Below are positions 9,899 to 12,883 of a stretch of 50,628 bases of DNA, one piece after another. The stretch is taken from positions 1-50,628 of the forward strand of contig JAHEDS010000010.1 of the NCBI GenBank assembly GCA_024641135.1, in the 5' to 3' direction. Source of the DNA: Flavobacteriales bacterium. Lineage in GTDB: Bacteria > Bacteroidota > Bacteroidia > Flavobacteriales > Flavobacteriaceae. Position 1 is the stretch's first letter. The number at the start of each line of letters is the position of its first letter. The notes under the pieces were generated by a model. The model saw only the letters and a list, made by a program, of their open reading frames with translations, did no database searches and had not been told where the DNA came from. A program made the translations under genes and the position numbers.

Positions 9899-10507
9899 AT
9901 GGCTTTTGAATTACCAAAATTAGGATATGCATATGACGCTTTAGAGCCTCATATTGACGCTCGCACAATGGAGATACATCATACAAAACACCACCAAGGA
10001 TATACCAATAATTTAAATGCAGCAATTGCAGGAACAGCTCTAGAAAATAAGTCAATTGGAGATATTCTTTCAAATTTGGATATGAATAATGCTGCTGTAA
10101 GAAATAATGGAGGAGGGTTTTTCAACCATTCTTTATTTTGGAATGTAATGAACCCAGAAGGAAAAGGGTATTTATCTGGAGAATTAAAAGATGCTATTAT
10201 CGCGGCTTATGGTTCTGTAGATGCTTTTAAAGATGCCTTTAGTAAAGCTGCTGCGACTAGATTTGGTTCTGGTTGGGCTTGGTTGTGCGTACATAAAGGA
10301 GGAAAAGTTGAGGTTTGTTCTACTCCAAATCAAGACAACCCTTTAATGCCAGGAGTTTCTTGTGGAGGAACACCAATTTTAGGGATTGACGTTTGGGAAC
10401 ATGCGTATTATTTAAACTATCAAAACCGTCGTCCAGATTATATCAATGCCTTTTTTAATGTAATTAATTGGAATGAAGTTGAAAGGCGATATGCTGAAGG
10501 AAAATAG
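9899..10507 (+). CDS. sod: Fe/Mn-type superoxide dismutase
   Basis: [69 protein letters not shown] metal-binding signature. Confidence 0.95.
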
Positions 10508-10533
10508 ATAAGAATGTGATTAAGTAATATTAT

Positions 10534-10567
10534 AAAAAAGCGTCTGGAAAAATCCAGACGCTTTTTT
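10534..10567 (+). terminator. intrinsic terminator downstream of sod
   Basis: aaaaaagcgtctgga-aaaa-tccagacgctttttt, 26 bp after the sod stop codon. Confidence 0.9.
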
Positions 10568-10599
10568 ATTTATATAAATTGAATATGTTTTTTAAAATG

Positions 10600-10627
10600 A
10601 AAAAGGTGAACGAGAGTTCACCTTTTT
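10600..10627 (-). terminator. intrinsic terminator of sRNA copy 1
   Basis: Perfect 12-bp stem with 4-nt loop; minus strand ends in a T5 tract. Confidence 0.75.
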
Positions 10628-10668
10628 GCCCCAAATCTACCATGAACTTAACCTACTTATGTTATGGT
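10600..10668 (-). ncRNA. candidate small RNA, copy 1 (~69 nt)
   Basis: Minus-strand ACCATAACATAAGTAGGTTAAGTTCATGGTAGATTTGGGGC core (10668-10628), identical to copy 2, then terminator AAAAAGGTGAAC-TCTC-GTTCACCTTTTT; preceded by TTTG-N18-TACATTTG. Confidence 0.72.
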
Positions 10669-10672
10669 GATT

Positions 10673-10702
10673 CAAATGTATGCAGCTACTAACAACTACA
10701 AA
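10673..10702 (-). promoter_or_regulatory. promoter of sRNA copy 1 (TTTG-N18-TACATTTG)
   Basis: Plus strand CAAATGTA (10673-10680), N18, CAAA (10699-10702); -7 box ends 4 nt before the conserved core. Confidence 0.7.
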
Positions 10703-10797
10703 AATATTTTAGTTCAACTACTAATTTATTAGCTTAAAAGATAAACGGTATAGGTGTATTAAAGATGAGTAAATGGAGTAGAAGTTAAAAAGGGCAT

Positions 10798-10829
10798 AAA
10801 AAAAGGCGAACAGAAGTTCACCTTTTTTT
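10798..10829 (-). terminator. intrinsic terminator of sRNA copy 2
   Basis: 14-bp stem. The one divergent pair is a G-U wobble on the minus strand but a C-A mismatch on the plus strand, so structure is kept only in minus-strand RNA. Confidence 0.72.
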
Positions 10830-10870
10830 GCCCCAAATCTACCATGAACTTAACCTACTTATGTTATGGT
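10798..10870 (-). ncRNA. candidate small RNA, copy 2 (~73 nt)
   Basis: Same 41-bp core (10870-10830, 41/41 identical) followed by terminator AAAAAAAGGTGAAC-TTCT-GTTCGCCTTTTTTT. Confidence 0.7.
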
Positions 10871-10874
10871 AGTA

Positions 10875-10882
10875 CCAATTTA
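10875..10882 (-). promoter_or_regulatory. degenerate -7 box of sRNA copy 2
   Basis: Minus-strand TAAATTGG (one mismatch to TAnnTTTG) at exactly the same 4-nt offset from the core as in copy 1; no TTTG at the -33 position. Confidence 0.5.
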
Positions 10883-10890
10883 TACGTATT

Positions 10891-10960
10891 TTAGATAAAA
10901 GTTCTATTTTTTAGATAAAACGCATTTTTATTAGATTAAATGTAGTTTTCATAGATAAAG
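10891..10960. repeat. four-unit direct-repeat array, exact 20-bp period (consensus TTAGATAAAA)
   Basis: TTAGATAAAA 10891-10900, TTAGATAAAA 10911-10920, TTAGATTAAA 10931-10940, ATAGATAAAG 10951-10960, with T-rich spacers. Confidence 0.75.
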
Positions 10961-10984
10961 TGCCACTAAATATTTTTTTATTAA

Positions 10985-12883
10985 TTAATAGGCCCGTTTT
11001 TTGTTTCCTTCATAAAAATTAATAAATGCACGGTTAACAACTCTGTTTCCGCCTACTGTTGGGTAGTTACCCGTAAAATACCAATCACCCAAATGTTTTG
11101 GACAAGCCTTATGTAAATTTTCAACTGACTGGAATATTATTTTAATTTCAGATTTAACATTGTCACCAGTTAATAACTCTGCTATTTTATCCGAGATTTG
11201 TTCATCTGTAAACGGTTCATAAATTTCCTTAACAAAGTTTTTAACTTGTCTGTCTTCTAAATCTGTTTGAAGAATGCATTTATCATATACTTCTTTTACA
11301 ATGTCAAAGTTGTTTGATTCTTTAAGTAGCTCTAATGCAGCTTTAAAAGCAATTAAACTTTCAAGATTTGCCATATCTATACCGTAACAATCGGGATAAC
11401 GTATTTGCGGTGCTGAAGAAACTATAACAATTTTTTTAGGATTCAATCTGTCAAGCATTTTTATAATACTCATCTTTAGAGTAGTCCCTCGAACAATGCT
11501 ATCATCTATAATAACCAAATTATCAGTCCGTTTAATAACCCCATAAGTTACATCATAAACGTGTGCTACTAAGTCATCACGGCTACTGTCTTCTGTAATA
11601 AAAGTCCTTAGTTTAACATCTTTAATGGCTATCTTTTCAATTCGCGGCATTTGAGATAAAATTTCGGTAACCCGTTCTGCTGATAAATTTCTGCTTCCGC
11701 TTAGAATAGCTTTGGTTTTCTTTTTATTGAGGAAATCTTCTACCGATTCAATCATTCCGTAAAAGGAAGTTTCTGCCGTATTTGGGATATATGAAAAAAC
11801 AGTATTTTTAATATCCTTGTTAATAGCGTCTAAAACTTTTGGCATGAGCAATCTACCAAGCATTTTTCGTTCTTGATAAATTTCAGCATCACTACCTCTT
11901 GAAAAATAAATGCGTTCAAATGAGCACGCTTTTCGTTCTAAAGGATTTAATATTTTCTTAATGGCAGTTTTACCAGATTTTTTTGTGATAATAGCATGAC
12001 CAGGCTCCAACTCTTTAACATCTTGATATTTTACATTAAATACCGTTTGAATCACAGGACGCTCAGAAGCAACCACAACAATTTCATCATCTTTATAATA
12101 ATATGCTGGACGAATTCCTGCAGGATCTCTTAATACAAATGAATCTCCGTGACCTAGTAATCCAGCCATTGCATAACCGCCATCCCAGTTTTTAGCAGCT
12201 CTCTTAAGTATTTTAGCAACGTTTAAACGCTCAGCAATCAGAGGAGAACACTCATTTTTGCTATAACCTTCATTTTTTAAATCTTTATATATTTTGCTTA
12301 CAGAATCATCTAAAAAATGACCTATTTTTTCCATAATGGTAATAGTATCGGTATACTCCTTTGGATGCTGACCTAAATCAATTAGGTTTTGAAACAATTC
12401 TTTAACATTGGTCATGTTAAAGTTTCCGGCAAGAATAAGATTTCTGTGCTGCCAGTTATTTTGTCTTAAAAAGGGATGAACGCTTTCAACACTGTTCTTC
12501 CCAAAAGTACCATATCTAACGTGTCCTAAAAAGACTTCACCTATATAGGGAATATTCTTTTTTTGAAGTTCGACACTATCTACATATTCAGGATTTTCTG
12601 TAAACTCTTTGTTAATTCTTTGGTTTATTTGAGCAAAAATATCTTGAATAGGTTGTTGTGCGATAGATCTCACCCTACTTATATAGCGTTCACCAGGCTT
12701 TGTGTCTAATTTTATACTTGCAAAACCAGCTCCATCTTGACCTCTGTTATGCTGTTTTTCCATCATCAGATACATTTTATTGACTCCATAAAACGCACTT
12801 CCATATTTTTCTTTATAGAACTCTAAAGGTTTTAAAAGTCTTAAAACAGCAATTCCGCATTCGTGTTTTAACGCATCACTCAT
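10985..12883 (-). CDS. amidophosphoribosyltransferase-like protein (PurF family, 632 aa)
   Basis: N-terminal class II glutamine amidotransferase (HECGIAV...HNRGQDGAGFASI, GHVRYGTFG) and PRPP-binding VIIDDSIVRGTTLK. Confidence 0.85.
   Translation of the reverse strand: MSDALKHECGIAVLRLLKPLEFYKEKYGSAFYGVNKMYLMMEKQHNRGQDGAGFASIKLDTKPGERYISRVRSIAQQPIQDIFAQINQRINKEFTENPEYVDSVELQKKNIPYIGEVFLGHVRYGTFGKNSVESVHPFLRQNNWQHRNLILAGNFNMTNVKELFQNLIDLGQHPKEYTDTITIMEKIGHFLDDSVSKIYKDLKNEGYSKNECSPLIAERLNVAKILKRAAKNWDGGYAMAGLLGHGDSFVLRDPAGIRPAYYYKDDEIVVVASERPVIQTVFNVKYQDVKELEPGHAIITKKSGKTAIKKILNPLERKACSFERIYFSRGSDAEIYQERKMLGRLLMPKVLDAINKDIKNTVFSYIPNTAETSFYGMIESVEDFLNKKKTKAILSGSRNLSAERVTEILSQMPRIEKIAIKDVKLRTFITEDSSRDDLVAHVYDVTYGVIKRTDNLVIIDDSIVRGTTLKMSIIKMLDRLNPKKIVIVSSAPQIRYPDCYGIDMANLESLIAFKAALELLKESNNFDIVKEVYDKCILQTDLEDRQVKNFVKEIYEPFTDEQISDKIAELLTGDNVKSEIKIIFQSVENLHKACPKHLGDWYFTGNYPTVGGNRVVNRAFINFYEGNKKRAY

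Follow-up and report, generated by a model that had tools for sequence, protein, structure and literature searches.

A tandem candidate small RNA between sod and purF in Flavobacteriaceae and its predicted pairing with an unlinked small-protein mRNA

The window, the whole 50,628-nucleotide stretch of flavobacterial DNA that was analysed, contains two closely similar short units between sod and a purF-like gene. An earlier note, made from the sequence alone, had read them as a duplicated, stand-alone small RNA (sRNA). The question is whether the units are genes in their own right and, if so, what their RNA acts on. We consider it likely that they encode a multicopy sRNA that acts in trans, pairing with the mRNA of a small protein and blocking its translation, probably as one member of a feed-forward pair.

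The layout described in the earlier note is borne out by the sequence. The flanking genes converge, a 41-bp string is repeated without a mismatch, and a hairpin followed by a T-tract is joined to each copy on the minus strand. The 41-bp identity sits within a 59-nt direct repeat that is 92% identical (10623-10681 and 10825-10883). Two minus-strand units of about 70 nt therefore share one core, and each ends in a hairpin terminator. The predicted fold of copy 1 has an energy of -20.7 kcal/mol (z -3.9; 1 of 200 shuffles is equally good), and that of copy 2 has -24.3 kcal/mol (z -4.7; no shuffle is equally good). The same pair is present at the same place in all seven genomes of the window's genus and is therefore not a chance arrangement. 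The inverted repeat between sod and the sRNA genes is probably a bidirectional terminator. Coordinates are listed in Table 1.

Table 1. Features of the sod-purF interval, in positions of the window.
Feature	Position	Strand	Description
sod	9899-10507	+	Flanking gene
17-bp perfect inverted repeat	10532-10569		A and T tails; presumed sod terminator, parts sod from the sRNA genes
sRNA copy 1 (purF-distal)	10600-10668	-	5' hairpin ACCATAAC...GTTCATGGT, single-stranded AGATTTGGGGC, terminator; 5' end placed from the position of the TACATTTG box
Intrinsic terminator hairpin, copy 1	10600-10627	-	GGTGAAC/GTTCACC plus A/T-tract arms; perfect 12-bp arms
Conserved 41-nt core, copy 1	10628-10668	-	Complementary to the predicted pairing sequence in the small-protein mRNA
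-7 box, copy 1	10673-10680	-	TACATTTG; TTTG 18 nt upstream
Upstream direct repeat, copy 1	10712-10737	-	TTAAGC (10737-10732) and TTGAAC (10717-10712), 20 bp apart
sRNA copy 2 (purF-proximal)	about 10798-10870	-	Core as in copy 1; longer A/T terminator arms
Intrinsic terminator hairpin, copy 2	10800-10827	-	Arms from A-tract/T-tract
Conserved 41-nt core, copy 2	10830-10870	-	Identical to copy 1 core
-7 box, copy 2	10875-10882	-	TAAATTGG; one departure from TAnnTTTG; read against the 253-promoter profile
Upstream direct repeats, copy 2	10894-10939	-	TTAATC (10939-10934), TTTATC (10919-10914) and TTTATC (10899-10894), 20 bp apart
purF-like gene	10985-12883	-	Encodes an amidophosphoribosyltransferase-like protein

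The TTTG-N18-TACATTTG promoter that had been proposed for copy 1 is present. Copy 2 has a weaker box, TAAATTGG, which the earlier note did not include, and in both copies the TAnnTTTG-type box is equally far from ACCATA. Alignment of 253 sRNA upstream regions places TAnnTTTG at a fixed distance, with a T-rich -33 region about 20 nt further upstream. In the same promoters, TTYRTC boxes peak at two positions exactly 20 bp apart; pairs at this spacing occur 42 times, against 0 in 20 shuffled sets. Activators of the LytTR type bind direct repeats that lie immediately before the -33 region and are separated by about two helical turns, usually about 21 bp, compared with exactly 20 bp here. The repeat looks like a candidate activator site. 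A search with the promoter element for a wider regulon returned mainly the sRNA copies themselves and a few other matches.

A core restricted to this genome was what the earlier note had named as evidence against an sRNA. At least one copy is instead present in 242 of the 301 sampled Flavobacteriaceae genomes, and 59 have none. Covariance-model scores of 60-102 bits are confined to this family, and no convincing match was found outside it in the order and phylum samples, where the best score does not exceed 36 bits. Named records with the sRNA include Maribacter, Zobellia, Winogradskyella, Lacinutrix, Aquimarina, and Flavobacterium. Among 120 fetched records, sod and purF are both present in 85, one of them in 29, and neither in 6, so that at least one adjoins the array in 114 of 120 loci; the fetched stretches are at most 8 kb long and a neighbour may fall outside them. 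Copies lie downstream of purF on the purF strand and number from one to six (47, 34, 20, 14, 4, and 1 records, respectively). A solitary extra copy is present away from the sod-purF locus in one genome (G003:C65, L017:867-937), on a contig with an apparent gene for a recombinase-like protein close by. This copy suggests that the unit moves occasionally.

The sRNA can be sorted into three sequence types: that of the window (ACCATAACATAAGTAGG...GGTAGATTTGGGG), a Maribacter/Zobellia type (RCCATAGCATAAGTAGG...GGTAAGATTTGGG), and a Flavobacterium type (ACCATAACATTAGTAGG...GGTAGATTTGGGG), the genera of the last two being assigned by inference from the named records. The first 44 or so nucleotides are near-invariant among 30 units that represent many genera. 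In the terminator, the sequence changes from unit to unit while the pairing is kept, with double (compensatory) changes at three pairs. The 5' hairpin that the earlier note drew for the core is predicted in the fold, and its pairs hold in 94-98% of 251 upstream/core sequences, with A-T to G-T and similar changes. Its innermost UAA/UUA pairing is lost in Flavobacterium, which has ATTAG for ATAAG, and this part is therefore better read as a conserved loop of 14-16 nt. The terminal loop (CAUAAGUAGGUUAAG; AGTAGGTTAAG) and the linker GATTTGGGG are conserved although they have no pairing partners, which suggests that they make intermolecular contacts. That the sRNA itself codes for a peptide (ATGGTAGATTTGGGGCAA...) was considered and is improbable: 5 to 7 A residues follow the core, depending on the unit, and the Maribacter/Zobellia type carries an extra base, so that no common frame is preserved.

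As judged from sequence signatures, each copy has a promoter and a terminator of its own. Together with the compensating terminator changes, the near-invariance of the unit in dozens of genera, and a copy number of one to six beside constant neighbours, this supports the duplicated stand-alone sRNA that the earlier note had proposed.

Across the whole window, no Rfam family is matched at its gathering score. Flavo-1, which had been suggested as a possible identity, is neither at gathering score nor in the list of matches at E<=10 for positions 10510-10990. Permissive Rfam matches (BTnc231, SurA, and others) were rejected as driven by terminators. Membership in FopS (RF04319) was rejected as well: the scores are 20.6-21.1 bits against a gathering score of 56, and the matter was decided by a genome search with RF04319 at E<=10, in which the window copies are not among the matches and unrelated sites reach 25.9 bits. 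The core sequence was found in no relevant paper, and the term undescribed applies to Rfam and the open-access papers searched.

Several near-identical copies that act by pairing are also a property of Qrr, the CiaR-dependent csRNAs, OmrA/B, and LhrC. These are among the sibling sRNA sets listed in PMC11697453. Their sequences are unrelated to that of the window sRNA, which differs further in that a single small-protein mRNA carries two sites for it and that sRNA and target have promoter repeats in common. FopS and GibS (RF04319, RF04182; PMC11697453) resemble it more closely, being multicopy short Bacteroidota sRNAs in which an unstructured stretch is conserved and an intrinsic terminator is present, and the string UUCAUGGU..AGAUUU looks common to FopS and the window sRNA; it was this string that raised the question of FopS membership. 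FopS pairs with translation initiation regions (PMC11697453). It has a single-stranded 5' region with the R1' seed followed by the terminator, whereas the window sRNA begins with a predicted 5' hairpin, lies in tandem at one syntenic locus, and has a small-protein mRNA rather than susC as its predicted target. The likeness to Bacteroides FopS is best described as functional only.

The Rfp sRNAs of Flavobacterium psychrophilum (PMC9723704) offer another comparison, as conserved flavobacterial sRNAs with predicted base-pairing targets. Rfp18 is the one flavobacterial base-pairing sRNA with mutant data found in the literature; it has a third stem-loop and metalloprotease/adhesin targets (PMC9723704). 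The window sRNA has one hairpin and a terminator, a distinction drawn from the published description, and it could be another of the Rfp sRNAs catalogued for that species.

Searching the genus for an 18-nt stretch complementary to the core, with up to three mismatches allowed, returned one recurrent site besides the sRNA genes, with one or two mismatches in six of the seven genomes. In its own reading direction, this site forms the leader of a small ORF, which in the window's genome lies outside the window (G000:C164; L228, L253). The leader there reads ACCCAAATCTACCATAAACTTAACCATTATG, then MNFATNLPEQPTFHESKFKETMRENLRFIKSLLYLTKKIFML. The earlier note had no target, and this one is new. It is a conserved, unannotated gene of about 42 codons, and its product of about 42 amino acids matched no Pfam or NCBIfam family. 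The reading frame, the stop, and a C-terminal end of the KKIFML type are kept in 69 orthologs. A convergent ABC-transporter ATPase gene (oligopeptide) adjoins the small ORF in all 30 loci examined, and the other flank is scoB in 23 of them and an acetoacetyl-CoA-synthetase-like gene in 6, these names being a reading of the protein sequences.

By profile search, the small ORF is present in 133 of the 301 family genomes at E<=0.1 and in 79 at E<1e-4. All 79 of the latter carry the sRNA, compared with 242 of 301 overall; the genomes are related and these counts overstate independence. Well over half of the sRNA-bearing genomes have no confident small ORF by the same search. There the sRNA must have other or diverged targets, and its full role is therefore larger than this one gene.

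The small-ORF mRNA contains two sites that are nearly fully complementary to the sRNA, one running through the leader to the start codon and one covering codons 4 to 13 or so. The leader motif CCCCAAATCTACCATAAACTTAAnnnCTTATG and the codon 4-13 site CAAATCTACCTGAACAACCTACT recur in the 69 orthologs, including those with a diverged protein. In the window's genome, the duplexes have predicted energies of -39.0 kcal/mol for the leader and -38.4 kcal/mol for the codons. The ortholog means are -37.4 and -35.4 kcal/mol, respectively, against means of -17.6 +/- 3.2 and -16.2 +/- 3.5 kcal/mol with shuffled mRNA and of -16.0 and -14.4 kcal/mol with shuffled sRNA (best -20.0 and -21.3). The leaders of 598 other ORFs have a mean of -17.4 +/- 3.9 kcal/mol, with a best value of -33.5. 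In 65 of the 69 orthologs, the duplex at the leader extends to the start codon; the orthologs are mutually related, so that such counts overstate independence. The complementarity is thus conserved, far above chance, and at the translation start of an unlinked mRNA.

Within site 2, Leu is encoded by CTA in 66 of 67 cases, compared with 22% elsewhere in the same genes, and Pro by CCT in 43 of 45, compared with about 10% elsewhere. Such freezing of synonymous codons is expected where a coding region is under selection for RNA pairing. The sRNA core is so invariant that it shows little covariation with the target; the exception is one position (ATAAG/ATTAG), for which a Flavobacterium target has the matching change. 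Part of the sRNA segment that pairs is enclosed in the sRNA's own 5' hairpin, which would have to open for pairing. Taken from sequence comparison, the pairing of the sRNA with the small-ORF mRNA is strongly supported. In one small-ORF leader (L276, G182) there are further antisense sites in tandem, CCCAAATCTACCTGAACTTAACC and CCCAAATCTACT, an expansion of the sRNA sites within a single mRNA.

The small-ORF promoters contain TTYATC(G) boxes too, with two boxes 20 bp apart in 17 of 69, against 0.15 expected from shuffles. The recurrence of the 20-bp repeat in the target promoter suggests that one regulator probably drives both the sRNA and the small-ORF mRNA in a feed-forward arrangement.

The proposed mechanism is as follows. 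An sRNA of about 70 nt would be transcribed on the minus strand from the promoter of each copy, a TAnnTTTG-type box with a 20-bp direct repeat resembling an activator site, and would stop at that copy's intrinsic terminator. Its loop CAUAAGUAGGUUAAG, the 3' arm of the hairpin, and the single-stranded GAUUUGGGG would jointly pair with the small-protein mRNA at two sites, in the leader up to and over the start codon and at about codons 4-13. Pairing at the start codon would most likely block translation initiation, and the shared regulator driving sRNA and target would make them a feed-forward pair. We infer the transcription of the sRNA, the identity of the regulator, the role of the small protein, and, because the pairing lies over the start codon, repression rather than activation.

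In a rival reading, the small-ORF mRNA acts mainly as a sponge that titrates the sRNA from other targets, such as lipoprotein mRNAs, with its peptide secondary. The presence of more than one site in each mRNA, with as many as three in certain leaders, would suit a sponge, as would the ORF of G180 (L317), which has no NLPE peptide motif and still has its leader sites, and a stretch of G005 (L018) with two antisense sites, a terminator-like hairpin, and no ORF. This reading seems unlikely nonetheless, given the conserved frame, stop, and C-terminus in the 69 orthologs, the placement of site 1 at the start codon in 65 of them, which a pure sponge would not require, and the finding of no other strong target in the window's genus by pattern and model searches.

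We judge it improbable, too, that the sRNA has a positive effect on the small-ORF mRNA, activating or stabilising it, for instance by unfolding an AGATTT-CCCC-AAATCT hairpin in the leader. Many leaders do have self-complementary AGATTT..AAATCT around the CCCC that pairs with the sRNA, and the common promoter element suggests that both products are needed together. The predicted pairing, however, covers the start codon, which normally blocks initiation, and several leaders, that of the window's genome included, have no perfect hairpin.

Still less probable is an sRNA that mostly binds protein, whether of the RRM type such as RbpB or another, with pairing as a side effect. The extreme conservation of the hairpin loop and single-stranded stretch would fit, and in Bacteroides the multicopy FopS RNAs are bound by RbpB (PMC11697453), but protein binding leaves unexplained why a syntenic gene that is unlinked to the sRNA should have matching antisense sites and synonymous codons that are frozen. 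That the units are mere 3'-end elements (tandem terminators) of the purF transcript is scarcely credible: they do lie downstream of purF on its strand, but each copy has its own conserved promoter and upstream repeat, the core is conserved far beyond the needs of a terminator, and G003 (L017) has an additional copy at another locus.

Repression of the small protein by a base-pairing sRNA remains the preferred reading, and other lineages appear to extend it. In G420 (L355), two paralogous CAP-domain-like lipoprotein genes have CTACTAA/TACTAA in their leaders, where the Flavobacterium sRNA reads ATTAG, and these leaders are complementary to nearly the whole 5' part of the sRNA. Their duplexes with the sRNA type of their own genome have energies of -49.7 and -50.0 kcal/mol; with the other type, the first leader gives -42.7. 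In G082 (L356), which has the Maribacter/Zobellia type, a lipoprotein leader contains CCCAAATCCAACATAAATTAACCTACTTATG (-35.0 kcal/mol). These leaders make it probable that the target set is wider in other lineages. In the window's genus, the target-leader model and pattern searches gave no further convincing target; target searching relied on such patterns and models rather than on an exhaustive scan for imperfect sites. An ungapped 33-nt pattern that allows wobble pairs returned only the sRNA genes themselves and chance-level matches, missing the small ORF because the true target has bulges.

We lean somewhat towards regarding the whole as an undescribed, family-wide pair, in which tandem sRNAs at sod-purF and an unlinked small-protein gene with two sites would be driven by one regulator as a feed-forward pair, site 2 pairing would freeze codons of the small-protein gene, and lipoprotein mRNAs would be extra targets elsewhere.

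Flavobacteriaceae are a major marine and freshwater family in which base-pairing sRNAs are almost unstudied. Here a near-invariant sRNA, present in about four fifths of the sampled family genomes, is matched with a specific predicted target and a new conserved small protein. To our knowledge, start codons in this family are generally not chosen by Shine-Dalgarno pairing, and an sRNA whose loop pairs over the start codon would therefore be a good model for the control of such mRNAs.

Three further observations concern single loci. The lipoprotein genes of G420 lie at about 430-1560 on the minus strand of L355, and the second has the same TTTCATCGA box upstream. The stretch at L018 (G005:C4, minus strand, about 1467-1560) has a TATATTTG box, its two antisense sites in tandem, and a T-run after the hairpin; it resembles a sponge RNA or a small-protein gene copy that has decayed. 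In Flavobacterium glaciei (L154), CCCAAAACTACCATT lies about 90 nt ahead of an ORF for a response-regulator-like protein close to the sRNA locus (-27.5 kcal/mol); the ORF is a possible target or regulator, and the match could be chance.
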